Source of the DNA: Congeria kusceri
Lineage: Eukaryota; Mollusca; Bivalvia; Myida; Dreissenidae
DNA: 64,000 bases
Reading direction: 5' to 3'
Assembly: GCA_027627225.1 (NCBI GenBank)
Contig: JAPFQT010000389.1
Location: 1-64,000, forward strand
Positions 1 through 54,269 of this stretch are shown piece by piece; the first letter of the stretch is position 1, and each line of letters starts with the position of its first letter. Both the position numbers and the translations under genes were made by a program. Under the pieces are notes generated by a model. That model saw nothing but the letters and a program-made list of their open reading frames with translations, was not told where the DNA came from and ran no database searches.

Positions 1-908
1 ACAGCTTGGTACGACCTGTTTACTGCTTCACTTTTTTGGGTTGTGGTTAAAAGTTTGGTAGCGTCAAGAGCAGCTGGACCTAAAACCATTTCAATGCATT
101 TTTTAAGGACTTGTTGGTCACTGTCAACCATTTTAACCTTTACATTGTCTGGCATGAAATTCTTAGCTTGCCTATTTGTACCAGCACAGACATAACTGTA
201 CTTTGCACAATGAGTACCGCAGTAACCACTGAAGCATAGAACAATGGTTGCGATTACATCAACCATGACCTTCTTTAGAACCTTGATGTCACCCTGGTGT
301 TTAGTGTGGGCAGCTTTAAGCTCAGCCATACACCTAGCTTTGACCGAGAGAGCGAACCGACTCCTGATATTAGACTTGGAATGACCCTTGAGCATGCCCT
401 TTGAGAAAGGCGCTTTGTTGAGCTCGCGCTTCAGCGAGTTGCCTAGGTGCCTCAGATCCTTAAGATGACCCACATTGTGACCGTGAGAGTTACGAACACC
501 TTGGAATGCCCTACTGTCCCCATCACAAGTGAAATTTGCTATTTTGATGTCCTTAGAGATCTGGTCACCTAACAACCTATTCCATTTGCCTTCATCACCT
601 ATTGGTTCCCTCTCTGAAACATTTGCAGAACAATGCCCCATATGATTGGGGCACTGAACAGGTTTACCCTTATTCCTAAGCATTGATGCAGTCCTGCATA
701 GTTTATTTGCTACTTGTACCCCTACAATTTGCTTGTTTCTGGTATTGTTTTCACACATAGTGCTTATGGCAATAGTTCCGGCTTGAAAGGGTGTCGCGTC
801 AGAGTAAAAAATTGGATTGTTGTAGCAAGTGTCCCCTTCAACATTTACCTTAGAGGGATCTTTTTGACCAATTTTGGCATTTTCAAATCTGGTACATGCT
901 TCTCTCAT
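1..908 (-). CDS. Mutator-like transposase, C-terminal ORF, array copy 1 (3' part outside window)
   Basis: This is the 416-aa ORF of the array, entered from its N-terminus at 908. It leaves the window after about 300 codons. The visible residues match the complete copies. Confidence 0.65.
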   Translation of the reverse strand, partial: MREACTRFENAKIGQKDPSKVNVEGDTCYNNPIFYSDATPFQAGTIAISTMCENNTRNKQIVGVQVANKLCRTASMLRNKGKPVQCPNHMGHCSANVSEREPIGDEGKWNRLLGDQISKDIKIANFTCDGDSRAFQGVRNSHGHNVGHLKDLRHLGNSLKRELNKAPFSKGMLKGHSKSNIRSRFALSVKARCMAELKAAHTKHQGDIKVLKKVMVDVIATIVLCFSGYCGTHCAKYSYVCAGTNRQAKNFMPDNVKVKMVDSDQQVLKKCIEMVLGPAALDATKLLTTTQKSEAVNRSYQA

Positions 909-1599
909 TTAGGGATTTAAGGGCAGTATTGACCTTATTTGCTTGTTTTTGCATAGCAAGTGGAGAGGGAGCAATGATATTGGTTGTGTTGAGAATTCTG
1001 CGGGAACCTGTGTTCCCAATAGAAGTACTTGCAACACCTATTTGGAAGCCTACATTGATCTGAGCTGCCTTTCTGCCCCTGGTACTTGATGGAACCTCAT
1101 TGTAAAGCTTATAATGCTTGCCTACATATCTGCATCTTGTACATTTTAACCTTTCCTCCCAGCCTAAGCCCCACTTTATGGAAGCACTGTCGTCAATTAC
1201 CAAGTCGCCCCTACATTTATCACTTCTTAACCTATGCTTTCTATTTTCAGAGGACATCATAGACTGGAGTAGGGCGGGGACATAGACCTTGTTCGTAAGT
1301 AAGTCGGGATGGACTTTTGATGGAGCAGGAACCCGTAACAGGTCTACATAGCGAATCTTGTTCGCTCTCGGACGCATGGGCTTAGCTGGGGTTTGAGAGC
1401 CGTCTACATCCCGAAAAGTAAGAACCTTGTCATTGTAAGCTACCCGTGCTTCAAAGGATGACCTTTCTAACCTTACATAGGTTGTGTTGGAATTTGACCT
1501 TCTTTCATAATTATGTTTTTTCCCCTTCACCGGACTAGTCCCACCTCGTTTAAAACCAACATTGAGCAACTTGTTCTTTTGCTTGGTTGTGAACCCCAT
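883..1599 (-). CDS. Mutator-like transposase, N-terminal ORF, array copy 1
   Basis: Copy 1 of the 238-aa ORF described at 4660-5376, with identical translation. It overlaps the 416-aa ORF by 26 bp. Confidence 0.65.
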   Translation of the reverse strand: MGFTTKQKNKLLNVGFKRGGTSPVKGKKHNYERRSNSNTTYVRLERSSFEARVAYNDKVLTFRDVDGSQTPAKPMRPRANKIRYVDLLRVPAPSKVHPDLLTNKVYVPALLQSMMSSENRKHRLRSDKCRGDLVIDDSASIKWGLGWEERLKCTRCRYVGKHYKLYNEVPSSTRGRKAAQINVGFQIGVASTSIGNTGSRRILNTTNIIAPSPLAMQKQANKVNTALKSLNERSMYQI

Positions 1600-2835
1600 T
1601 TTGACCAGATTGCCACCTTAAAAAAAGTCAAAGTACTTATTTTGTGCCCAAAATATGCAATTTTGTATTCCCTTAAACCTCTAAATGTGAGCAGGCAATG
1701 CAAATTGACCACCTGCTGCAGTTTAAAGGCACCCATGACATTATATACTAGAATATATAATTGGTGGCCTGTAATTAAAGAGGCTGCGACAAACAAGGTG
1801 CTTTAAAGATTTTACACTTTATTGGTTTGAAACAAGCAATTACTGGAAGCTGATTGATTTCTACACTTCAAAGTATCTTTGATCTCCCATTTTGACTAAT
1901 TTGTTAATTGTCTTGGATGAAATTGGAATTTTTTTTCTATTAAATTTACATTTTTGGGGTGATTTTTAAAAAAAAATACACAAAAAATACATTATCAAAA
2001 TGGCTTAGAGTAAAAATATCTAACAAAGTCATTCTCTCCTCACCCCACATAAGCCCCCCATACACGTTTGTTTGGTTTGTTTGGGTATTTTGTCACAAAT
2101 ATTGCAAATATCAGCTTTAATTGTTAGAGGGACATTTAAGCTTCAAGACGCTTGAAATCACCGGCTTCCGACCAAAATCACCTGTGTTTGAAAATATGAA
2201 ATAAAATGGCCAAATGGACAGATATACAAGCCAAACTTAATATATTGGTGCAATATGCATGGGAAGATAATTATATGCAAGAAAAACTAATTTTAATGAG
2301 AACAAATTTCTCTTATAGGTTACAGTATACTAAATATTTCTGGTGTGCAATGCTATACTCTCTAAATAAATCAACACCATTTATTTGAAGACACAATTTT
2401 CTGTATAGTCACTTGCCATGACTTTATTTTTGAATATTTCTTTGTACGTGTGGTAGGAAAAACATTGTTGTGTACTAAAAATTCACTGTTTCGCTTGAAG
2501 GTTGGAGACTACATGACGAGACTTTGACAGTTGGCAGTATACCTTCAACTGGAGAGTAGCCGGTAAAAAGATGGCCGTAAAACAGTGAACTTTGATTCGC
2601 GTTGAGTTCTTTCTTACATATCACATGACCTATCTTTTTTATTGTCTAACTCAATTCGGCTCAGAATGCTCTTTAAGAAAAGGTATGGTTATGAGGGTCT
2701 CTACGCGCAAAATGTTGAGTTTATTTTTTGTTGAATTTATTGCTTTTACATTGAATTTGTTAAGGAAATCTTTTAGTATATTGTGACCTAAACTGACTTT
2801 GGGTTAAAATAAAATATCGTCTGCAAGTGCAAAAT
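1600..2835. other. Non-coding part of the 3777-bp unit (recurs every 3777 bp)
   Basis: About 1.2 kb of AT-rich DNA lies between the divergent starts of the transposase ORFs and of the next nuclease gene, so it probably holds both promoters. ORFs of 60-97 aa here overlap on both strands and look random. Visible structure includes a run tatatactagaatatata near 1742-1760, a perfect 6-bp hairpin (ttcaag/cttgaa) near 2143-2157, and a larger nested inverted repeat at 2482-2589. The only base difference I found among copies is here: 1972 is A, while the equivalent base is G at 9526, 13303 and 17080. Confidence 0.7.
2482..2589. repeat. Nested inverted repeat near the unit end
   Basis: Outer arms TTCACTGTTT (2482-2491) and AAACAGTGAA (2580-2589) are perfect reverse complements. 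Inner arms TTGAAGG (2495-2501) and CCTTCAA (2542-2548) nest inside them. The structure sits about 200 bp from the unit boundary and about 250 bp upstream of the nuclease ATG, and recurs in all seven copies at 3777-bp steps. It could be a subterminal recognition structure for the transposase, a nuclease target or an operator; the sequence does not say which. Confidence 0.6.
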
Positions 2836-3377
2836 ATGGATGAGAAAGCAGATTTTTGGTCATTTCTGAGCAAAAGAGTAGAAAATAAGTGCATTAAATG
2901 CATCAATTCAGATTGTTTGGTCTGGAATGGTTGTATTTCAAATAGTTCCTTACCCTATTATGGCCGAATGAGGGCTAAATTGCCTTCGGACATAAAATCA
3001 GAGACATACTTGGTTCACCGTGTAGCGTTAATGTGCTACATGAAGTCAGCATTGAACGCCAGGGACTCTGTGAGCCACTTATGCAACAATAGCTTGTGTG
3101 TTAAGCCTGAACATTTAAACATAGAGCCCCATTCCACCAACATGGAACGGCGGACATGTTTACAGTTCGGACAGTGCAGCGGGCATGGAACTGAGCCAGC
3201 CTGCATATTTGGTAAAAACATGAATACAACAAGCTTTATCACTTCCTTTTATTCATAGAAATACACTTAAAATACATAAATGCATGTTTTTTTTCATTTT
3301 ATATCTATTTCTATTGGGTATTTTTGCCTTTTTCAGGTAGAGGAACGCCTGATGCTGACGCGAGGGCCACTTGTTAG
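2836..3377 (+). CDS. His-Me finger (I-PpoI-like, His-Cys box) homing-type endonuclease, array copy 1
   Basis: Predicted DNA endonuclease of the His-Cys box family, which nicks both strands of a long target with one metal ion. I start at the ATG at 2836; the frame opens slightly upstream with a GTG. Counting from that ATG, the proposed catalytic pair is His81 and Asn102. Zinc ligands are Cys83, Cys88, His93 (plus one upstream Cys, perhaps Cys27) and Cys108, Cys114, His117, Cys122. The spacings His-2-Cys-5-Cys-5-His-9-Asn-6-Cys are those I know from I-PpoI. The single exon would give 140 aa. A GT donor after 3211 and a ttgcctttttcag acceptor before 3337 suggest a 125-bp phase-1 intron, giving a 138-aa protein ending at TAG 3375-3377. 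It converges on the transposase-like ORF, whose stop lies 57 bp away on the other strand. The nuclease may drive spread or upkeep of the array; that role is inference. Confidence 0.82.
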
Positions 3378-3434
3378 AGGTCTCTTATGCCAAAACAGGT
3401 AATAATAACAATTTATTATCAGGTACACAATCAA

Positions 3435-4685
3435 CTAAGCATATTTATGATGCTTAAGGTGTGGAAGACTGTCATAATCAGGTTTGGGGTCACTCATGCC
3501 CTTGCCGTAGTGTAATTCCTCATGCAGTTTGTATCGATAATTCCGCGTCCTGGCACGTAAAGCTCGTGCTTTGTTGGTAGCGGATGTTTGCTTTCGGTTA
3601 AGGTCGTTGCGGTCCTCATATGCTATCTGCTTAATAATCTTTGACCCCTGGGTAAGGTTAGCATTTAGTTCAGTGGTTTTTGCAATTACAGAGTCAGCAT
3701 AGCCATTGTTTAATTTGTGAACCTGCCCGTGAATTCGACCTACACAGTTGCGTGAGAAAGTGACAGTTTTAGGATTGACAGCTTGGTACGACCTGTTTAC
3801 TGCTTCACTTTTTTGGGTTGTGGTTAAAAGTTTGGTAGCGTCAAGAGCAGCTGGACCTAAAACCATTTCAATGCATTTTTTAAGGACTTGTTGGTCACTG
3901 TCAACCATTTTAACCTTTACATTGTCTGGCATGAAATTCTTAGCTTGCCTATTTGTACCAGCACAGACATAACTGTACTTTGCACAATGAGTACCGCAGT
4001 AACCACTGAAGCATAGAACAATGGTTGCGATTACATCAACCATGACCTTCTTTAGAACCTTGATGTCACCCTGGTGTTTAGTGTGGGCAGCTTTAAGCTC
4101 AGCCATACACCTAGCTTTGACCGAGAGAGCGAACCGACTCCTGATATTAGACTTGGAATGACCCTTGAGCATGCCCTTTGAGAAAGGCGCTTTGTTGAGC
4201 TCGCGCTTCAGCGAGTTGCCTAGGTGCCTCAGATCCTTAAGATGACCCACATTGTGACCGTGAGAGTTACGAACACCTTGGAATGCCCTACTGTCCCCAT
4301 CACAAGTGAAATTTGCTATTTTGATGTCCTTAGAGATCTGGTCACCTAACAACCTATTCCATTTGCCTTCATCACCTATTGGTTCCCTCTCTGAAACATT
4401 TGCAGAACAATGCCCCATATGATTGGGGCACTGAACAGGTTTACCCTTATTCCTAAGCATTGATGCAGTCCTGCATAGTTTATTTGCTACTTGTACCCCT
4501 ACAATTTGCTTGTTTCTGGTATTGTTTTCACACATAGTGCTTATGGCAATAGTTCCGGCTTGAAAGGGTGTCGCGTCAGAGTAAAAAATTGGATTGTTGT
4601 AGCAAGTGTCCCCTTCAACATTTACCTTAGAGGGATCTTTTTGACCAATTTTGGCATTTTCAAATCTGGTACATGCTTCTCTCAT
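3435..4685 (-). CDS. Mutator-like transposase, C-terminal ORF (416 aa), array copy 2
   Basis: Likely the catalytic part of a Mutator-like transposase of the type common in molluscs and other marine invertebrates; this assignment is from remembered family motifs. Visible marks are YSDATPFQAGTI near residues 35-46, CPNHMGHC (86-93), an acidic DGDS motif at 129-132 followed by a Gly/His-rich stretch, and a second Cys cluster (225, 230, 234, 241) that looks zinc-binding. The C-terminus is basic (RALRARTRNYRYK). It starts at an ATG inside the end of the upstream 238-aa ORF, in the +1 frame, so the two may be one protein joined by frameshifting or separate products by reinitiation, or the frame may be broken. 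A minus-strand AATAAA lies at 3412-3417, just past the stop. A different DDE-type transposase cannot be excluded. Confidence 0.7.
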   Translation of the reverse strand: MREACTRFENAKIGQKDPSKVNVEGDTCYNNPIFYSDATPFQAGTIAISTMCENNTRNKQIVGVQVANKLCRTASMLRNKGKPVQCPNHMGHCSANVSEREPIGDEGKWNRLLGDQISKDIKIANFTCDGDSRAFQGVRNSHGHNVGHLKDLRHLGNSLKRELNKAPFSKGMLKGHSKSNIRSRFALSVKARCMAELKAAHTKHQGDIKVLKKVMVDVIATIVLCFSGYCGTHCAKYSYVCAGTNRQAKNFMPDNVKVKMVDSDQQVLKKCIEMVLGPAALDATKLLTTTQKSEAVNRSYQAVNPKTVTFSRNCVGRIHGQVHKLNNGYADSVIAKTTELNANLTQGSKIIKQIAYEDRNDLNRKQTSATNKARALRARTRNYRYKLHEELHYGKGMSDPKPDYDSLPHLKHHKYA

Positions 4686-5376
4686 TTAGGGATTTAAGGG
4701 CAGTATTGACCTTATTTGCTTGTTTTTGCATAGCAAGTGGAGAGGGAGCAATGATATTGGTTGTGTTGAGAATTCTGCGGGAACCTGTGTTCCCAATAGA
4801 AGTACTTGCAACACCTATTTGGAAGCCTACATTGATCTGAGCTGCCTTTCTGCCCCTGGTACTTGATGGAACCTCATTGTAAAGCTTATAATGCTTGCCT
4901 ACATATCTGCATCTTGTACATTTTAACCTTTCCTCCCAGCCTAAGCCCCACTTTATGGAAGCACTGTCGTCAATTACCAAGTCGCCCCTACATTTATCAC
5001 TTCTTAACCTATGCTTTCTATTTTCAGAGGACATCATAGACTGGAGTAGGGCGGGGACATAGACCTTGTTCGTAAGTAAGTCGGGATGGACTTTTGATGG
5101 AGCAGGAACCCGTAACAGGTCTACATAGCGAATCTTGTTCGCTCTCGGACGCATGGGCTTAGCTGGGGTTTGAGAGCCGTCTACATCCCGAAAAGTAAGA
5201 ACCTTGTCATTGTAAGCTACCCGTGCTTCAAAGGATGACCTTTCTAACCTTACATAGGTTGTGTTGGAATTTGACCTTCTTTCATAATTATGTTTTTTCC
5301 CCTTCACCGGACTAGTCCCACCTCGTTTAAAACCAACATTGAGCAACTTGTTCTTTTGCTTGGTTGTGAACCCCAT
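4660..5376 (-). CDS. Mutator-like transposase, N-terminal ORF (238 aa), array copy 2
   Basis: N-terminal half of the transposase-like protein. It begins with a basic region (residues 1-45), followed by MRPR (75-78). A segment containing KWGLGWEERLKCTRC (142-156) has a CxxC pair at 153/156. RGRKAAQINVGFQIG (174-188) leads into a Ser/Thr/Gly-rich stretch and a helical end. RGRKAA and the following GfqiG segment are what I associate with Mutator-like proteins of marine invertebrates. It ends at TGA, 26 bp past the ATG of the 416-aa ORF. No intron with normal signals fits the junction. It is divergent from the next nuclease gene, with 1.2 kb between the two starts. Confidence 0.7.
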   Translation of the reverse strand: MGFTTKQKNKLLNVGFKRGGTSPVKGKKHNYERRSNSNTTYVRLERSSFEARVAYNDKVLTFRDVDGSQTPAKPMRPRANKIRYVDLLRVPAPSKVHPDLLTNKVYVPALLQSMMSSENRKHRLRSDKCRGDLVIDDSASIKWGLGWEERLKCTRCRYVGKHYKLYNEVPSSTRGRKAAQINVGFQIGVASTSIGNTGSRRILNTTNIIAPSPLAMQKQANKVNTALKSLNERSMYQI

Positions 5377-6612
5377 TTTGACCAGATTGCCACCTTAAAA
5401 AAAGTCAAAGTACTTATTTTGTGCCCAAAATATGCAATTTTGTATTCCCTTAAACCTCTAAATGTGAGCAGGCAATGCAAATTGACCACCTGCTGCAGTT
5501 TAAAGGCACCCATGACATTATATACTAGAATATATAATTGGTGGCCTGTAATTAAAGAGGCTGCGACAAACAAGGTGCTTTAAAGATTTTACACTTTATT
5601 GGTTTGAAACAAGCAATTACTGGAAGCTGATTGATTTCTACACTTCAAAGTATCTTTGATCTCCCATTTTGACTAATTTGTTAATTGTCTTGGATGAAAT
5701 TGGAATTTTTTTTCTATTAAATTTACATTTTTGGGGTGATTTTTAAAAAAAAATACACAAAAAATACATTATCAAAATGGCTTAGAGTAAAAATATCTAA
5801 CAAAGTCATTCTCTCCTCACCCCACATAAGCCCCCCATACACGTTTGTTTGGTTTGTTTGGGTATTTTGTCACAAATATTGCAAATATCAGCTTTAATTG
5901 TTAGAGGGACATTTAAGCTTCAAGACGCTTGAAATCACCGGCTTCCGACCAAAATCACCTGTGTTTGAAAATATGAAATAAAATGGCCAAATGGACAGAT
6001 ATACAAGCCAAACTTAATATATTGGTGCAATATGCATGGGAAGATAATTATATGCAAGAAAAACTAATTTTAATGAGAACAAATTTCTCTTATAGGTTAC
6101 AGTATACTAAATATTTCTGGTGTGCAATGCTATACTCTCTAAATAAATCAACACCATTTATTTGAAGACACAATTTTCTGTATAGTCACTTGCCATGACT
6201 TTATTTTTGAATATTTCTTTGTACGTGTGGTAGGAAAAACATTGTTGTGTACTAAAAATTCACTGTTTCGCTTGAAGGTTGGAGACTACATGACGAGACT
6301 TTGACAGTTGGCAGTATACCTTCAACTGGAGAGTAGCCGGTAAAAAGATGGCCGTAAAACAGTGAACTTTGATTCGCGTTGAGTTCTTTCTTACATATCA
6401 CATGACCTATCTTTTTTATTGTCTAACTCAATTCGGCTCAGAATGCTCTTTAAGAAAAGGTATGGTTATGAGGGTCTCTACGCGCAAAATGTTGAGTTTA
6501 TTTTTTGTTGAATTTATTGCTTTTACATTGAATTTGTTAAGGAAATCTTTTAGTATATTGTGACCTAAACTGACTTTGGGTTAAAATAAAATATCGTCTG
6601 CAAGTGCAAAAT

Positions 6613-7154
6613 ATGGATGAGAAAGCAGATTTTTGGTCATTTCTGAGCAAAAGAGTAGAAAATAAGTGCATTAAATGCATCAATTCAGATTGTTTGGTCT
6701 GGAATGGTTGTATTTCAAATAGTTCCTTACCCTATTATGGCCGAATGAGGGCTAAATTGCCTTCGGACATAAAATCAGAGACATACTTGGTTCACCGTGT
6801 AGCGTTAATGTGCTACATGAAGTCAGCATTGAACGCCAGGGACTCTGTGAGCCACTTATGCAACAATAGCTTGTGTGTTAAGCCTGAACATTTAAACATA
6901 GAGCCCCATTCCACCAACATGGAACGGCGGACATGTTTACAGTTCGGACAGTGCAGCGGGCATGGAACTGAGCCAGCCTGCATATTTGGTAAAAACATGA
7001 ATACAACAAGCTTTATCACTTCCTTTTATTCATAGAAATACACTTAAAATACATAAATGCATGTTTTTTTTCATTTTATATCTATTTCTATTGGGTATTT
7101 TTGCCTTTTTCAGGTAGAGGAACGCCTGATGCTGACGCGAGGGCCACTTGTTAG
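6613..7154 (+). CDS. His-Me finger endonuclease, array copy 2
   Basis: Same sequence, start and proposed intron (6989-7113) as the copy at 2836-3377. Confidence 0.82.
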
Positions 7155-7211
7155 AGGTCTCTTATGCCAAAACAGGTAATAATAACAATTTATTATCAGG
7201 TACACAATCAA

Positions 7212-8462
7212 CTAAGCATATTTATGATGCTTAAGGTGTGGAAGACTGTCATAATCAGGTTTGGGGTCACTCATGCCCTTGCCGTAGTGTAATTCCTCAT
7301 GCAGTTTGTATCGATAATTCCGCGTCCTGGCACGTAAAGCTCGTGCTTTGTTGGTAGCGGATGTTTGCTTTCGGTTAAGGTCGTTGCGGTCCTCATATGC
7401 TATCTGCTTAATAATCTTTGACCCCTGGGTAAGGTTAGCATTTAGTTCAGTGGTTTTTGCAATTACAGAGTCAGCATAGCCATTGTTTAATTTGTGAACC
7501 TGCCCGTGAATTCGACCTACACAGTTGCGTGAGAAAGTGACAGTTTTAGGATTGACAGCTTGGTACGACCTGTTTACTGCTTCACTTTTTTGGGTTGTGG
7601 TTAAAAGTTTGGTAGCGTCAAGAGCAGCTGGACCTAAAACCATTTCAATGCATTTTTTAAGGACTTGTTGGTCACTGTCAACCATTTTAACCTTTACATT
7701 GTCTGGCATGAAATTCTTAGCTTGCCTATTTGTACCAGCACAGACATAACTGTACTTTGCACAATGAGTACCGCAGTAACCACTGAAGCATAGAACAATG
7801 GTTGCGATTACATCAACCATGACCTTCTTTAGAACCTTGATGTCACCCTGGTGTTTAGTGTGGGCAGCTTTAAGCTCAGCCATACACCTAGCTTTGACCG
7901 AGAGAGCGAACCGACTCCTGATATTAGACTTGGAATGACCCTTGAGCATGCCCTTTGAGAAAGGCGCTTTGTTGAGCTCGCGCTTCAGCGAGTTGCCTAG
8001 GTGCCTCAGATCCTTAAGATGACCCACATTGTGACCGTGAGAGTTACGAACACCTTGGAATGCCCTACTGTCCCCATCACAAGTGAAATTTGCTATTTTG
8101 ATGTCCTTAGAGATCTGGTCACCTAACAACCTATTCCATTTGCCTTCATCACCTATTGGTTCCCTCTCTGAAACATTTGCAGAACAATGCCCCATATGAT
8201 TGGGGCACTGAACAGGTTTACCCTTATTCCTAAGCATTGATGCAGTCCTGCATAGTTTATTTGCTACTTGTACCCCTACAATTTGCTTGTTTCTGGTATT
8301 GTTTTCACACATAGTGCTTATGGCAATAGTTCCGGCTTGAAAGGGTGTCGCGTCAGAGTAAAAAATTGGATTGTTGTAGCAAGTGTCCCCTTCAACATTT
8401 ACCTTAGAGGGATCTTTTTGACCAATTTTGGCATTTTCAAATCTGGTACATGCTTCTCTCAT
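7212..8462 (-). CDS. Mutator-like transposase C-terminal ORF, array copy 3
   Basis: Identical translation to 3435-4685. Confidence 0.68.
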   Translation of the reverse strand: MREACTRFENAKIGQKDPSKVNVEGDTCYNNPIFYSDATPFQAGTIAISTMCENNTRNKQIVGVQVANKLCRTASMLRNKGKPVQCPNHMGHCSANVSEREPIGDEGKWNRLLGDQISKDIKIANFTCDGDSRAFQGVRNSHGHNVGHLKDLRHLGNSLKRELNKAPFSKGMLKGHSKSNIRSRFALSVKARCMAELKAAHTKHQGDIKVLKKVMVDVIATIVLCFSGYCGTHCAKYSYVCAGTNRQAKNFMPDNVKVKMVDSDQQVLKKCIEMVLGPAALDATKLLTTTQKSEAVNRSYQAVNPKTVTFSRNCVGRIHGQVHKLNNGYADSVIAKTTELNANLTQGSKIIKQIAYEDRNDLNRKQTSATNKARALRARTRNYRYKLHEELHYGKGMSDPKPDYDSLPHLKHHKYA

Positions 8463-9153
8463 TTAGGGATTTAAGGGCAGTATTGACCTTATTTGCTTGT
8501 TTTTGCATAGCAAGTGGAGAGGGAGCAATGATATTGGTTGTGTTGAGAATTCTGCGGGAACCTGTGTTCCCAATAGAAGTACTTGCAACACCTATTTGGA
8601 AGCCTACATTGATCTGAGCTGCCTTTCTGCCCCTGGTACTTGATGGAACCTCATTGTAAAGCTTATAATGCTTGCCTACATATCTGCATCTTGTACATTT
8701 TAACCTTTCCTCCCAGCCTAAGCCCCACTTTATGGAAGCACTGTCGTCAATTACCAAGTCGCCCCTACATTTATCACTTCTTAACCTATGCTTTCTATTT
8801 TCAGAGGACATCATAGACTGGAGTAGGGCGGGGACATAGACCTTGTTCGTAAGTAAGTCGGGATGGACTTTTGATGGAGCAGGAACCCGTAACAGGTCTA
8901 CATAGCGAATCTTGTTCGCTCTCGGACGCATGGGCTTAGCTGGGGTTTGAGAGCCGTCTACATCCCGAAAAGTAAGAACCTTGTCATTGTAAGCTACCCG
9001 TGCTTCAAAGGATGACCTTTCTAACCTTACATAGGTTGTGTTGGAATTTGACCTTCTTTCATAATTATGTTTTTTCCCCTTCACCGGACTAGTCCCACCT
9101 CGTTTAAAACCAACATTGAGCAACTTGTTCTTTTGCTTGGTTGTGAACCCCAT
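8437..9153 (-). CDS. Mutator-like transposase N-terminal ORF, array copy 3
   Basis: Identical translation to 4660-5376. This unit carries the G variant at 9526 in the adjacent non-coding part. Confidence 0.68.
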   Translation of the reverse strand: MGFTTKQKNKLLNVGFKRGGTSPVKGKKHNYERRSNSNTTYVRLERSSFEARVAYNDKVLTFRDVDGSQTPAKPMRPRANKIRYVDLLRVPAPSKVHPDLLTNKVYVPALLQSMMSSENRKHRLRSDKCRGDLVIDDSASIKWGLGWEERLKCTRCRYVGKHYKLYNEVPSSTRGRKAAQINVGFQIGVASTSIGNTGSRRILNTTNIIAPSPLAMQKQANKVNTALKSLNERSMYQI

Positions 9154-10389
9154 TTTGACCAGATTGCCACCTTAAAAAAAGTCAAAGTACTTATTTTGTG
9201 CCCAAAATATGCAATTTTGTATTCCCTTAAACCTCTAAATGTGAGCAGGCAATGCAAATTGACCACCTGCTGCAGTTTAAAGGCACCCATGACATTATAT
9301 ACTAGAATATATAATTGGTGGCCTGTAATTAAAGAGGCTGCGACAAACAAGGTGCTTTAAAGATTTTACACTTTATTGGTTTGAAACAAGCAATTACTGG
9401 AAGCTGATTGATTTCTACACTTCAAAGTATCTTTGATCTCCCATTTTGACTAATTTGTTAATTGTCTTGGATGAAATTGGAATTTTTTTTCTATTAAATT
9501 TACATTTTTGGGGTGATTTTTAAAAGAAAATACACAAAAAATACATTATCAAAATGGCTTAGAGTAAAAATATCTAACAAAGTCATTCTCTCCTCACCCC
9601 ACATAAGCCCCCCATACACGTTTGTTTGGTTTGTTTGGGTATTTTGTCACAAATATTGCAAATATCAGCTTTAATTGTTAGAGGGACATTTAAGCTTCAA
9701 GACGCTTGAAATCACCGGCTTCCGACCAAAATCACCTGTGTTTGAAAATATGAAATAAAATGGCCAAATGGACAGATATACAAGCCAAACTTAATATATT
9801 GGTGCAATATGCATGGGAAGATAATTATATGCAAGAAAAACTAATTTTAATGAGAACAAATTTCTCTTATAGGTTACAGTATACTAAATATTTCTGGTGT
9901 GCAATGCTATACTCTCTAAATAAATCAACACCATTTATTTGAAGACACAATTTTCTGTATAGTCACTTGCCATGACTTTATTTTTGAATATTTCTTTGTA
10001 CGTGTGGTAGGAAAAACATTGTTGTGTACTAAAAATTCACTGTTTCGCTTGAAGGTTGGAGACTACATGACGAGACTTTGACAGTTGGCAGTATACCTTC
10101 AACTGGAGAGTAGCCGGTAAAAAGATGGCCGTAAAACAGTGAACTTTGATTCGCGTTGAGTTCTTTCTTACATATCACATGACCTATCTTTTTTATTGTC
10201 TAACTCAATTCGGCTCAGAATGCTCTTTAAGAAAAGGTATGGTTATGAGGGTCTCTACGCGCAAAATGTTGAGTTTATTTTTTGTTGAATTTATTGCTTT
10301 TACATTGAATTTGTTAAGGAAATCTTTTAGTATATTGTGACCTAAACTGACTTTGGGTTAAAATAAAATATCGTCTGCAAGTGCAAAAT

Positions 10390-10931
10390 ATGGATGAGAA
10401 AGCAGATTTTTGGTCATTTCTGAGCAAAAGAGTAGAAAATAAGTGCATTAAATGCATCAATTCAGATTGTTTGGTCTGGAATGGTTGTATTTCAAATAGT
10501 TCCTTACCCTATTATGGCCGAATGAGGGCTAAATTGCCTTCGGACATAAAATCAGAGACATACTTGGTTCACCGTGTAGCGTTAATGTGCTACATGAAGT
10601 CAGCATTGAACGCCAGGGACTCTGTGAGCCACTTATGCAACAATAGCTTGTGTGTTAAGCCTGAACATTTAAACATAGAGCCCCATTCCACCAACATGGA
10701 ACGGCGGACATGTTTACAGTTCGGACAGTGCAGCGGGCATGGAACTGAGCCAGCCTGCATATTTGGTAAAAACATGAATACAACAAGCTTTATCACTTCC
10801 TTTTATTCATAGAAATACACTTAAAATACATAAATGCATGTTTTTTTTCATTTTATATCTATTTCTATTGGGTATTTTTGCCTTTTTCAGGTAGAGGAAC
10901 GCCTGATGCTGACGCGAGGGCCACTTGTTAG
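10390..10931 (+). CDS. His-Me finger endonuclease, array copy 3
   Basis: Same sequence and structure as 2836-3377; proposed intron 10766-10890. Confidence 0.82.
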
Positions 10932-10988
10932 AGGTCTCTTATGCCAAAACAGGTAATAATAACAATTTATTATCAGGTACACAATCAA

Positions 10989-14708: not shown

Positions 14709-14765
14709 AGGTCTCTTATGCCAAAACAGGTAATAATAACAATTTATTATCAGGTACACAATCAA

Positions 14766-16016: not shown

Positions 16017-16707
16017 TTAGGGATTTAAGGGCAGTATTGACCTTATTTGCTTGTTTTTGCATAGCAAGTGGAGAGGGAGCAATGATATTGGTTGTGTTGA
16101 GAATTCTGCGGGAACCTGTGTTCCCAATAGAAGTACTTGCAACACCTATTTGGAAGCCTACATTGATCTGAGCTGCCTTTCTGCCCCTGGTACTTGATGG
16201 AACCTCATTGTAAAGCTTATAATGCTTGCCTACATATCTGCATCTTGTACATTTTAACCTTTCCTCCCAGCCTAAGCCCCACTTTATGGAAGCACTGTCG
16301 TCAATTACCAAGTCGCCCCTACATTTATCACTTCTTAACCTATGCTTTCTATTTTCAGAGGACATCATAGACTGGAGTAGGGCGGGGACATAGACCTTGT
16401 TCGTAAGTAAGTCGGGATGGACTTTTGATGGAGCAGGAACCCGTAACAGGTCTACATAGCGAATCTTGTTCGCTCTCGGACGCATGGGCTTAGCTGGGGT
16501 TTGAGAGCCGTCTACATCCCGAAAAGTAAGAACCTTGTCATTGTAAGCTACCCGTGCTTCAAAGGATGACCTTTCTAACCTTACATAGGTTGTGTTGGAA
16601 TTTGACCTTCTTTCATAATTATGTTTTTTCCCCTTCACCGGACTAGTCCCACCTCGTTTAAAACCAACATTGAGCAACTTGTTCTTTTGCTTGGTTGTGA
16701 ACCCCAT
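15991..16707 (-). CDS. Mutator-like transposase N-terminal ORF, array copy 5
   Basis: Identical translation to 4660-5376. The G variant is at 17080. Confidence 0.68.
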   Translation of the reverse strand: MGFTTKQKNKLLNVGFKRGGTSPVKGKKHNYERRSNSNTTYVRLERSSFEARVAYNDKVLTFRDVDGSQTPAKPMRPRANKIRYVDLLRVPAPSKVHPDLLTNKVYVPALLQSMMSSENRKHRLRSDKCRGDLVIDDSASIKWGLGWEERLKCTRCRYVGKHYKLYNEVPSSTRGRKAAQINVGFQIGVASTSIGNTGSRRILNTTNIIAPSPLAMQKQANKVNTALKSLNERSMYQI

Positions 16708-17943
16708 TTTGACCAGATTGCCACCTTAAAAAAAGTCAAAGTACTTATTTTGTGCCCAAAATATGCAATTTTGTATTCCCTTAAACCTCTAAATGTGAGC
16801 AGGCAATGCAAATTGACCACCTGCTGCAGTTTAAAGGCACCCATGACATTATATACTAGAATATATAATTGGTGGCCTGTAATTAAAGAGGCTGCGACAA
16901 ACAAGGTGCTTTAAAGATTTTACACTTTATTGGTTTGAAACAAGCAATTACTGGAAGCTGATTGATTTCTACACTTCAAAGTATCTTTGATCTCCCATTT
17001 TGACTAATTTGTTAATTGTCTTGGATGAAATTGGAATTTTTTTTCTATTAAATTTACATTTTTGGGGTGATTTTTAAAAGAAAATACACAAAAAATACAT
17101 TATCAAAATGGCTTAGAGTAAAAATATCTAACAAAGTCATTCTCTCCTCACCCCACATAAGCCCCCCATACACGTTTGTTTGGTTTGTTTGGGTATTTTG
17201 TCACAAATATTGCAAATATCAGCTTTAATTGTTAGAGGGACATTTAAGCTTCAAGACGCTTGAAATCACCGGCTTCCGACCAAAATCACCTGTGTTTGAA
17301 AATATGAAATAAAATGGCCAAATGGACAGATATACAAGCCAAACTTAATATATTGGTGCAATATGCATGGGAAGATAATTATATGCAAGAAAAACTAATT
17401 TTAATGAGAACAAATTTCTCTTATAGGTTACAGTATACTAAATATTTCTGGTGTGCAATGCTATACTCTCTAAATAAATCAACACCATTTATTTGAAGAC
17501 ACAATTTTCTGTATAGTCACTTGCCATGACTTTATTTTTGAATATTTCTTTGTACGTGTGGTAGGAAAAACATTGTTGTGTACTAAAAATTCACTGTTTC
17601 GCTTGAAGGTTGGAGACTACATGACGAGACTTTGACAGTTGGCAGTATACCTTCAACTGGAGAGTAGCCGGTAAAAAGATGGCCGTAAAACAGTGAACTT
17701 TGATTCGCGTTGAGTTCTTTCTTACATATCACATGACCTATCTTTTTTATTGTCTAACTCAATTCGGCTCAGAATGCTCTTTAAGAAAAGGTATGGTTAT
17801 GAGGGTCTCTACGCGCAAAATGTTGAGTTTATTTTTTGTTGAATTTATTGCTTTTACATTGAATTTGTTAAGGAAATCTTTTAGTATATTGTGACCTAAA
17901 CTGACTTTGGGTTAAAATAAAATATCGTCTGCAAGTGCAAAAT

Positions 17944-18485
17944 ATGGATGAGAAAGCAGATTTTTGGTCATTTCTGAGCAAAAGAGTAGAAAATAAGTGC
18001 ATTAAATGCATCAATTCAGATTGTTTGGTCTGGAATGGTTGTATTTCAAATAGTTCCTTACCCTATTATGGCCGAATGAGGGCTAAATTGCCTTCGGACA
18101 TAAAATCAGAGACATACTTGGTTCACCGTGTAGCGTTAATGTGCTACATGAAGTCAGCATTGAACGCCAGGGACTCTGTGAGCCACTTATGCAACAATAG
18201 CTTGTGTGTTAAGCCTGAACATTTAAACATAGAGCCCCATTCCACCAACATGGAACGGCGGACATGTTTACAGTTCGGACAGTGCAGCGGGCATGGAACT
18301 GAGCCAGCCTGCATATTTGGTAAAAACATGAATACAACAAGCTTTATCACTTCCTTTTATTCATAGAAATACACTTAAAATACATAAATGCATGTTTTTT
18401 TTCATTTTATATCTATTTCTATTGGGTATTTTTGCCTTTTTCAGGTAGAGGAACGCCTGATGCTGACGCGAGGGCCACTTGTTAG
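17944..18485 (+). CDS. His-Me finger endonuclease, array copy 5
   Basis: Same sequence and structure as 2836-3377; proposed intron 18320-18444. Confidence 0.82.
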
Positions 18486-18542
18486 AGGTCTCTTATGCCA
18501 AAACAGGTAATAATAACAATTTATTATCAGGTACACAATCAA

Positions 18543-19793
18543 CTAAGCATATTTATGATGCTTAAGGTGTGGAAGACTGTCATAATCAGGTTTGGGGTCA
18601 CTCATGCCCTTGCCGTAGTGTAATTCCTCATGCAGTTTGTATCGATAATTCCGCGTCCTGGCACGTAAAGCTCGTGCTTTGTTGGTAGCGGATGTTTGCT
18701 TTCGGTTAAGGTCGTTGCGGTCCTCATATGCTATCTGCTTAATAATCTTTGACCCCTGGGTAAGGTTAGCATTTAGTTCAGTGGTTTTTGCAATTACAGA
18801 GTCAGCATAGCCATTGTTTAATTTGTGAACCTGCCCGTGAATTCGACCTACACAGTTGCGTGAGAAAGTGACAGTTTTAGGATTGACAGCTTGGTACGAC
18901 CTGTTTACTGCTTCACTTTTTTGGGTTGTGGTTAAAAGTTTGGTAGCGTCAAGAGCAGCTGGACCTAAAACCATTTCAATGCATTTTTTAAGGACTTGTT
19001 GGTCACTGTCAACCATTTTAACCTTTACATTGTCTGGCATGAAATTCTTAGCTTGCCTATTTGTACCAGCACAGACATAACTGTACTTTGCACAATGAGT
19101 ACCGCAGTAACCACTGAAGCATAGAACAATGGTTGCGATTACATCAACCATGACCTTCTTTAGAACCTTGATGTCACCCTGGTGTTTAGTGTGGGCAGCT
19201 TTAAGCTCAGCCATACACCTAGCTTTGACCGAGAGAGCGAACCGACTCCTGATATTAGACTTGGAATGACCCTTGAGCATGCCCTTTGAGAAAGGCGCTT
19301 TGTTGAGCTCGCGCTTCAGCGAGTTGCCTAGGTGCCTCAGATCCTTAAGATGACCCACATTGTGACCGTGAGAGTTACGAACACCTTGGAATGCCCTACT
19401 GTCCCCATCACAAGTGAAATTTGCTATTTTGATGTCCTTAGAGATCTGGTCACCTAACAACCTATTCCATTTGCCTTCATCACCTATTGGTTCCCTCTCT
19501 GAAACATTTGCAGAACAATGCCCCATATGATTGGGGCACTGAACAGGTTTACCCTTATTCCTAAGCATTGATGCAGTCCTGCATAGTTTATTTGCTACTT
19601 GTACCCCTACAATTTGCTTGTTTCTGGTATTGTTTTCACACATAGTGCTTATGGCAATAGTTCCGGCTTGAAAGGGTGTCGCGTCAGAGTAAAAAATTGG
19701 ATTGTTGTAGCAAGTGTCCCCTTCAACATTTACCTTAGAGGGATCTTTTTGACCAATTTTGGCATTTTCAAATCTGGTACATGCTTCTCTCAT
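18543..19793 (-). CDS. Mutator-like transposase C-terminal ORF, array copy 6
   Basis: Identical translation to 3435-4685. Confidence 0.68.
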   Translation of the reverse strand: MREACTRFENAKIGQKDPSKVNVEGDTCYNNPIFYSDATPFQAGTIAISTMCENNTRNKQIVGVQVANKLCRTASMLRNKGKPVQCPNHMGHCSANVSEREPIGDEGKWNRLLGDQISKDIKIANFTCDGDSRAFQGVRNSHGHNVGHLKDLRHLGNSLKRELNKAPFSKGMLKGHSKSNIRSRFALSVKARCMAELKAAHTKHQGDIKVLKKVMVDVIATIVLCFSGYCGTHCAKYSYVCAGTNRQAKNFMPDNVKVKMVDSDQQVLKKCIEMVLGPAALDATKLLTTTQKSEAVNRSYQAVNPKTVTFSRNCVGRIHGQVHKLNNGYADSVIAKTTELNANLTQGSKIIKQIAYEDRNDLNRKQTSATNKARALRARTRNYRYKLHEELHYGKGMSDPKPDYDSLPHLKHHKYA

Positions 19794-20484
19794 TTAGGGA
19801 TTTAAGGGCAGTATTGACCTTATTTGCTTGTTTTTGCATAGCAAGTGGAGAGGGAGCAATGATATTGGTTGTGTTGAGAATTCTGCGGGAACCTGTGTTC
19901 CCAATAGAAGTACTTGCAACACCTATTTGGAAGCCTACATTGATCTGAGCTGCCTTTCTGCCCCTGGTACTTGATGGAACCTCATTGTAAAGCTTATAAT
20001 GCTTGCCTACATATCTGCATCTTGTACATTTTAACCTTTCCTCCCAGCCTAAGCCCCACTTTATGGAAGCACTGTCGTCAATTACCAAGTCGCCCCTACA
20101 TTTATCACTTCTTAACCTATGCTTTCTATTTTCAGAGGACATCATAGACTGGAGTAGGGCGGGGACATAGACCTTGTTCGTAAGTAAGTCGGGATGGACT
20201 TTTGATGGAGCAGGAACCCGTAACAGGTCTACATAGCGAATCTTGTTCGCTCTCGGACGCATGGGCTTAGCTGGGGTTTGAGAGCCGTCTACATCCCGAA
20301 AAGTAAGAACCTTGTCATTGTAAGCTACCCGTGCTTCAAAGGATGACCTTTCTAACCTTACATAGGTTGTGTTGGAATTTGACCTTCTTTCATAATTATG
20401 TTTTTTCCCCTTCACCGGACTAGTCCCACCTCGTTTAAAACCAACATTGAGCAACTTGTTCTTTTGCTTGGTTGTGAACCCCAT
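19768..20484 (-). CDS. Mutator-like transposase N-terminal ORF, array copy 6
   Basis: Identical translation to 4660-5376. The variant base is back to A in the adjacent non-coding part. Confidence 0.68.
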   Translation of the reverse strand: MGFTTKQKNKLLNVGFKRGGTSPVKGKKHNYERRSNSNTTYVRLERSSFEARVAYNDKVLTFRDVDGSQTPAKPMRPRANKIRYVDLLRVPAPSKVHPDLLTNKVYVPALLQSMMSSENRKHRLRSDKCRGDLVIDDSASIKWGLGWEERLKCTRCRYVGKHYKLYNEVPSSTRGRKAAQINVGFQIGVASTSIGNTGSRRILNTTNIIAPSPLAMQKQANKVNTALKSLNERSMYQI

Positions 20485-21720
20485 TTTGACCAGATTGCCA
20501 CCTTAAAAAAAGTCAAAGTACTTATTTTGTGCCCAAAATATGCAATTTTGTATTCCCTTAAACCTCTAAATGTGAGCAGGCAATGCAAATTGACCACCTG
20601 CTGCAGTTTAAAGGCACCCATGACATTATATACTAGAATATATAATTGGTGGCCTGTAATTAAAGAGGCTGCGACAAACAAGGTGCTTTAAAGATTTTAC
20701 ACTTTATTGGTTTGAAACAAGCAATTACTGGAAGCTGATTGATTTCTACACTTCAAAGTATCTTTGATCTCCCATTTTGACTAATTTGTTAATTGTCTTG
20801 GATGAAATTGGAATTTTTTTTCTATTAAATTTACATTTTTGGGGTGATTTTTAAAAAAAAATACACAAAAAATACATTATCAAAATGGCTTAGAGTAAAA
20901 ATATCTAACAAAGTCATTCTCTCCTCACCCCACATAAGCCCCCCATACACGTTTGTTTGGTTTGTTTGGGTATTTTGTCACAAATATTGCAAATATCAGC
21001 TTTAATTGTTAGAGGGACATTTAAGCTTCAAGACGCTTGAAATCACCGGCTTCCGACCAAAATCACCTGTGTTTGAAAATATGAAATAAAATGGCCAAAT
21101 GGACAGATATACAAGCCAAACTTAATATATTGGTGCAATATGCATGGGAAGATAATTATATGCAAGAAAAACTAATTTTAATGAGAACAAATTTCTCTTA
21201 TAGGTTACAGTATACTAAATATTTCTGGTGTGCAATGCTATACTCTCTAAATAAATCAACACCATTTATTTGAAGACACAATTTTCTGTATAGTCACTTG
21301 CCATGACTTTATTTTTGAATATTTCTTTGTACGTGTGGTAGGAAAAACATTGTTGTGTACTAAAAATTCACTGTTTCGCTTGAAGGTTGGAGACTACATG
21401 ACGAGACTTTGACAGTTGGCAGTATACCTTCAACTGGAGAGTAGCCGGTAAAAAGATGGCCGTAAAACAGTGAACTTTGATTCGCGTTGAGTTCTTTCTT
21501 ACATATCACATGACCTATCTTTTTTATTGTCTAACTCAATTCGGCTCAGAATGCTCTTTAAGAAAAGGTATGGTTATGAGGGTCTCTACGCGCAAAATGT
21601 TGAGTTTATTTTTTGTTGAATTTATTGCTTTTACATTGAATTTGTTAAGGAAATCTTTTAGTATATTGTGACCTAAACTGACTTTGGGTTAAAATAAAAT
21701 ATCGTCTGCAAGTGCAAAAT

Positions 21721-22262
21721 ATGGATGAGAAAGCAGATTTTTGGTCATTTCTGAGCAAAAGAGTAGAAAATAAGTGCATTAAATGCATCAATTCAGATTG
21801 TTTGGTCTGGAATGGTTGTATTTCAAATAGTTCCTTACCCTATTATGGCCGAATGAGGGCTAAATTGCCTTCGGACATAAAATCAGAGACATACTTGGTT
21901 CACCGTGTAGCGTTAATGTGCTACATGAAGTCAGCATTGAACGCCAGGGACTCTGTGAGCCACTTATGCAACAATAGCTTGTGTGTTAAGCCTGAACATT
22001 TAAACATAGAGCCCCATTCCACCAACATGGAACGGCGGACATGTTTACAGTTCGGACAGTGCAGCGGGCATGGAACTGAGCCAGCCTGCATATTTGGTAA
22101 AAACATGAATACAACAAGCTTTATCACTTCCTTTTATTCATAGAAATACACTTAAAATACATAAATGCATGTTTTTTTTCATTTTATATCTATTTCTATT
22201 GGGTATTTTTGCCTTTTTCAGGTAGAGGAACGCCTGATGCTGACGCGAGGGCCACTTGTTAG
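21721..22262 (+). CDS. His-Me finger endonuclease, array copy 6 (last)
   Basis: Same sequence and structure as 2836-3377; proposed intron 22097-22221. No seventh nuclease follows, because the array ends 44 bp before where its ATG would be. Confidence 0.82.
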
Positions 22263-22319
22263 AGGTCTCTTATGCCAAAACAGGTAATAATAACAATTTA
22301 TTATCAGGTACACAATCAA

Positions 22320-23570
22320 CTAAGCATATTTATGATGCTTAAGGTGTGGAAGACTGTCATAATCAGGTTTGGGGTCACTCATGCCCTTGCCGTAGTGTAA
22401 TTCCTCATGCAGTTTGTATCGATAATTCCGCGTCCTGGCACGTAAAGCTCGTGCTTTGTTGGTAGCGGATGTTTGCTTTCGGTTAAGGTCGTTGCGGTCC
22501 TCATATGCTATCTGCTTAATAATCTTTGACCCCTGGGTAAGGTTAGCATTTAGTTCAGTGGTTTTTGCAATTACAGAGTCAGCATAGCCATTGTTTAATT
22601 TGTGAACCTGCCCGTGAATTCGACCTACACAGTTGCGTGAGAAAGTGACAGTTTTAGGATTGACAGCTTGGTACGACCTGTTTACTGCTTCACTTTTTTG
22701 GGTTGTGGTTAAAAGTTTGGTAGCGTCAAGAGCAGCTGGACCTAAAACCATTTCAATGCATTTTTTAAGGACTTGTTGGTCACTGTCAACCATTTTAACC
22801 TTTACATTGTCTGGCATGAAATTCTTAGCTTGCCTATTTGTACCAGCACAGACATAACTGTACTTTGCACAATGAGTACCGCAGTAACCACTGAAGCATA
22901 GAACAATGGTTGCGATTACATCAACCATGACCTTCTTTAGAACCTTGATGTCACCCTGGTGTTTAGTGTGGGCAGCTTTAAGCTCAGCCATACACCTAGC
23001 TTTGACCGAGAGAGCGAACCGACTCCTGATATTAGACTTGGAATGACCCTTGAGCATGCCCTTTGAGAAAGGCGCTTTGTTGAGCTCGCGCTTCAGCGAG
23101 TTGCCTAGGTGCCTCAGATCCTTAAGATGACCCACATTGTGACCGTGAGAGTTACGAACACCTTGGAATGCCCTACTGTCCCCATCACAAGTGAAATTTG
23201 CTATTTTGATGTCCTTAGAGATCTGGTCACCTAACAACCTATTCCATTTGCCTTCATCACCTATTGGTTCCCTCTCTGAAACATTTGCAGAACAATGCCC
23301 CATATGATTGGGGCACTGAACAGGTTTACCCTTATTCCTAAGCATTGATGCAGTCCTGCATAGTTTATTTGCTACTTGTACCCCTACAATTTGCTTGTTT
23401 CTGGTATTGTTTTCACACATAGTGCTTATGGCAATAGTTCCGGCTTGAAAGGGTGTCGCGTCAGAGTAAAAAATTGGATTGTTGTAGCAAGTGTCCCCTT
23501 CAACATTTACCTTAGAGGGATCTTTTTGACCAATTTTGGCATTTTCAAATCTGGTACATGCTTCTCTCAT
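22320..23570 (-). CDS. Mutator-like transposase C-terminal ORF, array copy 7 (last)
   Basis: Identical translation to 3435-4685. Confidence 0.68.
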   Translation of the reverse strand: MREACTRFENAKIGQKDPSKVNVEGDTCYNNPIFYSDATPFQAGTIAISTMCENNTRNKQIVGVQVANKLCRTASMLRNKGKPVQCPNHMGHCSANVSEREPIGDEGKWNRLLGDQISKDIKIANFTCDGDSRAFQGVRNSHGHNVGHLKDLRHLGNSLKRELNKAPFSKGMLKGHSKSNIRSRFALSVKARCMAELKAAHTKHQGDIKVLKKVMVDVIATIVLCFSGYCGTHCAKYSYVCAGTNRQAKNFMPDNVKVKMVDSDQQVLKKCIEMVLGPAALDATKLLTTTQKSEAVNRSYQAVNPKTVTFSRNCVGRIHGQVHKLNNGYADSVIAKTTELNANLTQGSKIIKQIAYEDRNDLNRKQTSATNKARALRARTRNYRYKLHEELHYGKGMSDPKPDYDSLPHLKHHKYA

Positions 23571-24261
23571 TTAGGGATTTAAGGGCAGTATTGACCTTAT
23601 TTGCTTGTTTTTGCATAGCAAGTGGAGAGGGAGCAATGATATTGGTTGTGTTGAGAATTCTGCGGGAACCTGTGTTCCCAATAGAAGTACTTGCAACACC
23701 TATTTGGAAGCCTACATTGATCTGAGCTGCCTTTCTGCCCCTGGTACTTGATGGAACCTCATTGTAAAGCTTATAATGCTTGCCTACATATCTGCATCTT
23801 GTACATTTTAACCTTTCCTCCCAGCCTAAGCCCCACTTTATGGAAGCACTGTCGTCAATTACCAAGTCGCCCCTACATTTATCACTTCTTAACCTATGCT
23901 TTCTATTTTCAGAGGACATCATAGACTGGAGTAGGGCGGGGACATAGACCTTGTTCGTAAGTAAGTCGGGATGGACTTTTGATGGAGCAGGAACCCGTAA
24001 CAGGTCTACATAGCGAATCTTGTTCGCTCTCGGACGCATGGGCTTAGCTGGGGTTTGAGAGCCGTCTACATCCCGAAAAGTAAGAACCTTGTCATTGTAA
24101 GCTACCCGTGCTTCAAAGGATGACCTTTCTAACCTTACATAGGTTGTGTTGGAATTTGACCTTCTTTCATAATTATGTTTTTTCCCCTTCACCGGACTAG
24201 TCCCACCTCGTTTAAAACCAACATTGAGCAACTTGTTCTTTTGCTTGGTTGTGAACCCCAT
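23545..24261 (-). CDS. Mutator-like transposase N-terminal ORF, array copy 7 (last)
   Basis: Identical translation to 4660-5376. Its upstream non-coding region is complete up to the array end at 25454. Confidence 0.68.
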   Translation of the reverse strand: MGFTTKQKNKLLNVGFKRGGTSPVKGKKHNYERRSNSNTTYVRLERSSFEARVAYNDKVLTFRDVDGSQTPAKPMRPRANKIRYVDLLRVPAPSKVHPDLLTNKVYVPALLQSMMSSENRKHRLRSDKCRGDLVIDDSASIKWGLGWEERLKCTRCRYVGKHYKLYNEVPSSTRGRKAAQINVGFQIGVASTSIGNTGSRRILNTTNIIAPSPLAMQKQANKVNTALKSLNERSMYQI

Positions 24262-25454
24262 TTTGACCAGATTGCCACCTTAAAAAAAGTCAAAGTACTT
24301 ATTTTGTGCCCAAAATATGCAATTTTGTATTCCCTTAAACCTCTAAATGTGAGCAGGCAATGCAAATTGACCACCTGCTGCAGTTTAAAGGCACCCATGA
24401 CATTATATACTAGAATATATAATTGGTGGCCTGTAATTAAAGAGGCTGCGACAAACAAGGTGCTTTAAAGATTTTACACTTTATTGGTTTGAAACAAGCA
24501 ATTACTGGAAGCTGATTGATTTCTACACTTCAAAGTATCTTTGATCTCCCATTTTGACTAATTTGTTAATTGTCTTGGATGAAATTGGAATTTTTTTTCT
24601 ATTAAATTTACATTTTTGGGGTGATTTTTAAAAAAAAATACACAAAAAATACATTATCAAAATGGCTTAGAGTAAAAATATCTAACAAAGTCATTCTCTC
24701 CTCACCCCACATAAGCCCCCCATACACGTTTGTTTGGTTTGTTTGGGTATTTTGTCACAAATATTGCAAATATCAGCTTTAATTGTTAGAGGGACATTTA
24801 AGCTTCAAGACGCTTGAAATCACCGGCTTCCGACCAAAATCACCTGTGTTTGAAAATATGAAATAAAATGGCCAAATGGACAGATATACAAGCCAAACTT
24901 AATATATTGGTGCAATATGCATGGGAAGATAATTATATGCAAGAAAAACTAATTTTAATGAGAACAAATTTCTCTTATAGGTTACAGTATACTAAATATT
25001 TCTGGTGTGCAATGCTATACTCTCTAAATAAATCAACACCATTTATTTGAAGACACAATTTTCTGTATAGTCACTTGCCATGACTTTATTTTTGAATATT
25101 TCTTTGTACGTGTGGTAGGAAAAACATTGTTGTGTACTAAAAATTCACTGTTTCGCTTGAAGGTTGGAGACTACATGACGAGACTTTGACAGTTGGCAGT
25201 ATACCTTCAACTGGAGAGTAGCCGGTAAAAAGATGGCCGTAAAACAGTGAACTTTGATTCGCGTTGAGTTCTTTCTTACATATCACATGACCTATCTTTT
25301 TTATTGTCTAACTCAATTCGGCTCAGAATGCTCTTTAAGAAAAGGTATGGTTATGAGGGTCTCTACGCGCAAAATGTTGAGTTTATTTTTTGTTGAATTT
25401 ATTGCTTTTACATTGAATTTGTTAAGGAAATCTTTTAGTATATTGTGACCTAAA

Positions 25455-54228: not shown

Positions 54229-54269
54229 ATTACATTATGTAAAACTTTATTTATTGTGTTGTTCCCTTC

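Follow-up and report, generated by a model that had tools for sequence, protein, structure and literature searches.

How a homing-endonuclease-like gene and a transposase gene came to be repeated together, unit after unit, is the question raised by one end of a contig of the bivalve Congeria kusceri. The stretch analyzed, referred to here as the window, comprises positions 1–64,000 of contig JAPFQT010000389.1 (C389), from a genome of 1.55 Gb in 1071 contigs. The repeated element is almost certainly a KolobokP transposon, in which an internal region (INT) lies between two long terminal direct repeats (LTDRs), and the array is a (LTDR-INT)n-LTDR multimer of it. Taken as a whole, the arrangement is very probably best explained by one KolobokP insertion that has grown in place.

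Self-comparison reveals a head-to-tail repeat with a period of 3777 bp at positions 1–25454 (plus strand). The first-pass annotation had described six nuclease genes and seven transposase open reading frame (ORF) pairs, convergent and spaced 3777 bp apart in tandem order, and both the ORF list and the self-comparison bear this out. A chance origin of the repeat is out of the question. Neighbouring units differ by two mismatches across the array, both at the sole variable unit position, which reads G at 9526, 13303 and 17080 and A at 1972, 5749, 20857 and 24634; the G variant occupies three consecutive units among the seven that hold the site. The unit is composed of a 471-bp LTDR and a 3306-bp INT. 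The reference LTDR (6095–6565, plus strand), whose limits were set by monomers, starts with GG, ends with CC, and displays 17-bp inverted ends with two mismatches (GGTTACAGTATACTAAA and TTTAGTATATTGTGACC), marked by the inverted pair 6093–6111/6549–6567. Seven LTDRs, all on the plus strand and with no differences among them, are present in the window: the reference, an identical copy at 2318–2788, further copies at 9872–10342, 13649–14119, 17426–17896 and 21203–21673, and a terminal one at 24980–25450 that closes the array. The reference INT (6566–9871, plus strand) is accompanied by copies at 2789–6094, 10343–13648, 14120–17425, 17897–21202 and 21674–24979, and by a partial copy at 1–2317. 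On the right, the terminal LTDR is followed by TAAA (25451–25454), a probable target-site duplication with its left partner outside the contig. Because the window begins at the first base of C389, the left end of the array is missing and its true length extends beyond the contig.

The gene on the plus strand of INT (6604–7035 in the reference unit, with further copies starting at 2827, 10381, 14158, 17935 and 21712) encodes an I-PpoI-like His-Cys box nuclease. Each of the six complete ORFs spans 143 amino acids from a GTG codon, with an in-frame ATG three codons on (6613 in the reference), which is the likely start. The family assignment of the first-pass annotation is supported by a Pfam match to PF05551 (1.9e-10). 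The closest named protein is P0002 from Dreissena polymorpha (73% identity), and P0001, from a contig of 3875 bp, is nearer still (78%); a single sequence retrieved 2 related proteins and a three-sequence profile 10. A search of the PDB with the single sequence gave no match up to an E-value of 10, and a profile of 13 nucleases matched I-PpoI at 3.7e-6. Residues His84, Cys86, Cys91, His96 and Asn105 are invariant in these 13 sequences and align to the SHLC...C..P.HL...N motif of I-PpoI. The best AlphaFold model is of modest quality, with a predicted local distance difference test (pLDDT) score of 76.8, the other four ranging from 38.6 to 48.5, and a structure search with it ranked I-PpoI entries first to fourth and I-HmuI fifth (best E-value 0.022, none below 0.001). 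The enzyme thus resembles I-PpoI, the homing endonuclease of a Physarum group I intron, in its His-Cys box, the aligned histidine, asparagine and zinc-binding cysteines and histidines, and its Pfam family, but I-PpoI sits in an rDNA intron whereas the window nuclease is encoded in a DNA transposon. Distant relatives (31–32% identity) occur on three contigs of the IMG/VR viral collection (L001, L002 and L003). A spliced carboxy-terminus was also considered for the gene, and was dropped on finding that a copy of a second family reaches its stop codon without it.

The transposase gene is read from the minus strand as two overlapping ORFs that converge with the nuclease ORF inside each unit. The amino-terminal ORF (8437–9153, 238 amino acids) ends at a 17-nt deletion, and the catalytic ORF (7212–8462, 416 amino acids) continues in another frame; both occur in seven copies, the first catalytic one being cut by the contig start. 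The two ORFs match the Pfam family PF20700, 'Mutator' (3.8e-19 and 1.6e-17). The catalytic ORF has 56 protein relatives, the closest named one being P0003 of Dreissena polymorpha (89% identity), and none were found in IMG/VR or among GTDB genome contigs. An alignment of 30 of the 56 with the window sequence, in the numbering of P0003, contains nearly invariant residues at Asp262, Cys307, Cys322, His325, Cys329, Asp367, His390, Cys461, Cys466, Cys470, Cys477 and Glu530, which we read as the putative DDD/E, CCHC, C/DxxH and zinc-finger motifs of a KolobokP transposase. Among the relatives, P0021 and P0031 of Mactra antiquata bear the name 'lens induction in camera-type eye' in the public record, probably a transferred label. 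Many others lie on metagenome contigs of approximately 3–4 kb, near the size of a single INT or unit, and perhaps represent arrays collapsed by the assembler.

Twenty single copies were fetched from nuclease hits in the same genome. Nineteen are complete LTDR-INT-LTDR monomers, and L014 consists of one LTDR and a truncated INT. Perfect direct repeats flank 16 of the 19 monomers; they are 4 bp long in 15 (TATA, TACA, TCTA, TGTA, TTAA, TAAA, ATAA, ATTA or ACAA) and 6 bp in L023, and no perfect flanking repeat was found for L016, L019 and L020. The two genes are linked outside the window array, in all 19 complete monomers and likewise at the four loci of the second family with listed ORFs (L053, L054, L056 and L061). 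Target-site duplications of Mutator/MuDR elements measure about 9–11 bp, and the duplications of the monomers do not fit this superfamily. The 'Mutator-like' label of the first-pass annotation is thus right as to the Pfam family and survives only as Pfam's name, since termini and 4-bp duplications fit Kolobok. At L027 (3006–7729), a monomer of the window family is inserted midway in another LTDR, with a TATA duplication.

Assignment to KolobokP follows from the gene pair and its orientation, the inverted ends of the LTDR, the build of the monomers, their direct flanks and the match to the description of Kojima and Bao (2022; PMC9587614). KolobokP was described there with the same gene pair and with multimers, and its Table 1 includes Dreissena polymorpha and D. 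rostriformis; the first-pass annotation, which knew of no described system with this pairing, had hence met a published one. The reported LTDRs, about 450 or 660 bp long and bearing inverted ends of their own of 11–18 bp, compare with 471 and 17 bp here, and the termini 5'-RR...YY-3' with GG...CC. Target-site duplications are given as 3–5 bp (PMC9587614); the family has 4 bp in 15 of 19 monomers, the window array itself displaying only the right TAAA. The published transposase is of the DDD/E type and has a CCHC motif following its first aspartate, a C/DxxH motif and a zinc finger preceding the glutamate; its counterpart in the window is split across two frames. In both cases the His-Me finger nuclease lies downstream of the transposase, on the other strand. 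LTDR-sharing multimers, published together with solo LTDRs and for other molluscs too (PMC9587614), are found in the window and elsewhere in the genome. INT-INT junctions with losses of 3–4 bp are a further shared feature of the family. Differences from the published elements are the subfamily with the 17-nt deletion, arrays of INT alone with a fixed junction, and an array of at least 26 nucleases over about 92 kb. The family in the window may itself already be catalogued among the published consensus sequences. A parallel drawn in the same paper is with bacterial composite transposons and IS26-type translocatable units, in which small mobile ends in direct orientation likewise flank a gene-bearing centre, can be lost alone, and accompany head-to-tail growth; the element analyzed here differs in belonging to the eukaryotic Kolobok lineage, with no gene found in the LTDR and the transposase in the centre.

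The 17 nt are missing from each of the seven window copies, after the amino-terminal part and ahead of the first catalytic aspartate. An unbroken transposase frame of 652 amino acids is present in L016 and in relatives, P0003 among them. Seventeen of the 19 complete monomers (all except L016 and L021) and all 12 further single copies carry the deletion, that is 29 of 31; beyond these, the deletion is present in L004, L006–L011 and L049 and absent from L005 and L051, and L102 and L103 have no match in the region. The counts are no census, since loci were chosen for their similarity to the nuclease or to INT. The presence of deleted copies at many places, with duplications, indicates that they moved after the deletion arose. 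They were probably mobilized in trans by undeleted copies, which we favour over two ORFs that still work jointly.

We scored 150 nuclease hits, the best of 5019 first-look candidates in the genome, and joined neighbouring hits within 8 kb into clusters. Of the 55 places occupied, 23 are clusters, which hold 118 of the hits, and 32 are single. Among 95 spacings, 45 are exactly 3777 bp and 15 others fall between 3768 and 3783 bp; a further 22 (3295–3307 bp) equal the length of INT without an LTDR, 5 measure 3317–3319 bp, 8 are double, and none lies near the 3794 bp that an undeleted INT together with an LTDR would give. One cluster, on contig C20, contains at least 26 nucleases over about 92 kb, its 25 spacings comprising 6 with an LTDR, 17 without and 2 double. 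Sixteen of its LTDR-less junctions exist in four sequence forms (7, 6, 2 and 1 copies), a pattern that repeated excision of LTDRs with different footprints would produce. By contrast, the junction is uniform in arrays of INT alone, being identical in all 7 stretches read from a second-family array on C14 and in all 5 from first-family copies on C1; this indicates that the LTDR was lost first and INT multiplied afterwards. INT-INT junctions have been explained by excision within multimers (PMC9587614), to which the multiplication of INT alone is an addition. The second KolobokP family (L052–L061 and L082–L089) is about 80% identical to P0013, has LTDRs of about 474 bp, and forms arrays of its own, for example at 13.39–13.41 Mb on C14 and 51.79–51.84 Mb on C1.

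The outer ends of four multimers were fetched on both sides, the arrays on C20 and C12 being reached at one end. Three of the four are bounded by matching 4-bp sequences, TTAA on C16 and TAAA on C10 and on C58; for the fourth, on C48, the left stretch fell inside the array. These matching duplications, together with the block of three adjacent units with the G variant, make growth in place by recombination likely. In the sequence of events proposed here, an LTDR-INT-LTDR monomer would have been inserted at TAAA by the transposase, which undeleted copies probably provided in trans to the split subfamily. The insertion would have duplicated 4 bp, the right copy of which is seen and the left presumed. 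Homologous exchange between neighbouring units would then multiply the 3777-bp unit and keep the units alike, as their pattern suggests. The unbroken nuclease could raise the rate of exchange by cutting within the unit or at its edge, and LTDRs are at times excised, leaving INT-only units able to keep multiplying, as seen in the junctions.

The part of the nuclease is the more doubtful component. All 150 scored hits are full length and stop-free while 29 of 31 single copies carry the transposase deletion, and for this reason stimulation of growth by the nuclease, already proposed by Kojima and Bao (PMC9587614), is plausible; that growth needs it, or is strongly stimulated by it, we hold only tentatively. 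Several points weigh against the proposed account. The nucleases were picked by similarity, so their intactness partly reflects the search, and selection counts for the first family are biased in the same way. In the second family, chosen by its transposase, the ratio of nonsynonymous to synonymous differences per site (pN/pS) reaches 0.80 in the nuclease, compared with 0.33 in the transposase; constraint on the nuclease is weaker and gives no sign of being special. Nonautonomous KolobokP families are reported to form multimers too (PMC9587614), which means that the nuclease is not needed in cis. Finally, both the left end of the window array and its left duplication fall outside C389.

Unequal crossing-over without any aid, building and trimming arrays with the nuclease irrelevant, is about as credible as a driving role for the enzyme. 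It requires repeats alone, and accounts for the contiguous variant block, the INT-only arrays and the large differences in cluster size, but leaves unexplained why arrays are so common (23 clusters in 55 places) and why the nuclease is retained in the lineage, most families of which, leaving six examples across animals aside, are reported to carry it (PMC9587614). A less likely route is model b of the same paper, in which a released circle of one LTDR and one INT integrates anew at an LTDR, so that units are added and each element has matching LTDRs. In five older monomers, both LTDRs share variants relative to the window LTDR, save for a single additional change in L016 and another in L030 (L019 and L020, with an indel in one LTDR each, were left out of this base-by-base comparison). 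Most of the shared variants are common to several copies and say little; however, the variant at position 111 is found solely in L016 among the compared copies, on both its LTDRs, and G at position 250 is shared by the two LTDRs of L022 and by those of L030, as a one-LTDR intermediate predicts. The paired variants fit such an intermediate or birth of the monomer from an array, INT-only arrays multiply although they offer no LTDR as a target, and the five LTDR pairs of the second family are not clearly matched (identity 0.968–0.993 within pairs; mean 0.974 and up to 1.0 between them). An assembler's repetition of a single copy or short array, suggested by the start at contig base 1 and the all but identical units, is very improbable: the C16, C10 and C58 multimers have unique flanks on either side with matching duplications, spacings and LTDR-loss footprints vary within arrays, and multimers are published for other molluscs (PMC9587614). 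The copy number in the window may nevertheless be wrong.

For growth in place with help from the nuclease, the INT/LTDR junction is a weak lead as a putative target. The INT end reads TTTCTCTTATA before GGTTAC of the LTDR in the first family, and GTTCTCTTAA before AGGTCA in the second. The site of I-PpoI in 28S rDNA is CTCTCTTAAGGTAGC. In both families the junction ties for the greatest likeness to it within the unit, but not above Markov-shuffled units (maxima 10–12 and 10–13, 40 shuffles each), which equal or exceed its score, and the likeness alone is therefore no evidence. An octamer, TTCTCTTA, is common to the INT ends of both families. Among 5000 random pairs of 40-mers, 23 did as well or better, a rate near 1 in 200 at a single boundary, with four boundaries compared; some of these pairs may be homologous coding sequence. 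In the second family TCTCTTA stands at the LTDR in seven of eight INT ends (L083 is the exception), and L060, in addition to these eight, reads CTCATA; the loci form one related group and are non-independent. It is conceivable, and on balance improbable, that INT is a self-amplifying nuclease satellite, cut at its end (TTCTCTTA plus GGT of the LTDR), where the sequence recalls the rDNA site of I-PpoI, and repaired from a neighbouring unit with a gain of copies. If so, the split-transposase subfamily, even as INT without LTDRs, would multiply through homing into the array it belongs to, and a transposase would be required solely for founding new arrays. The 'self-propagating gene-bearing satellite' of the first-pass annotation is thus sustained as far as INT-only arrays have been amplified as such, and not for propagation driven by the nuclease.

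A gene pairing that is striking in the raw sequence is now placed in a described transposon lineage. New relative to the available part of PMC9587614 are the split-transposase subfamily, the INT-only arrays with a fixed junction, the sharing of LTDR variants inside two kinds of monomer, and the candidate junction. The genome is suited to testing the published idea of nuclease-induced multimers, as it contains near-identical arrays with and without LTDRs, a split-transposase subfamily with an unbroken nuclease, and the junction as a candidate substrate. If growth is indeed driven by the nuclease, this would be a case of an animal nuclear genome in which tandem DNA is amplified by a homing endonuclease.

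In the rest of the window, Rfam at gathering thresholds gave no match, a result that holds for all 64 kb. A 53-bp tandem repeat forms two oppositely oriented blocks (25630–28808 and 33842–36672) with arms of at least 600 bp that are about 84–87% complementary; the blocks flank approximately 5 kb immediately to the right of the array, and are perhaps the ends of another mobile element. Other tandem repeats are located at 40914–42439 (period 166 bp), 53925–54233 (39 bp) and 54583–55090 (164 bp). ORFs were found for an F-box protein (39501–39974, plus), a PHD-finger protein (47242–48069, plus) behind a weak YqaJ-like match below the cut-off, and a DDE_Tnp_4 transposase (49097–49645, minus). Pieces of a non-LTR retrotransposon occupy 58523–61778 on the minus strand, with a reverse transcriptase (PF00078) at 58523–59290 and a weak endonuclease match, below the Pfam cut-off, at 59978–60562.

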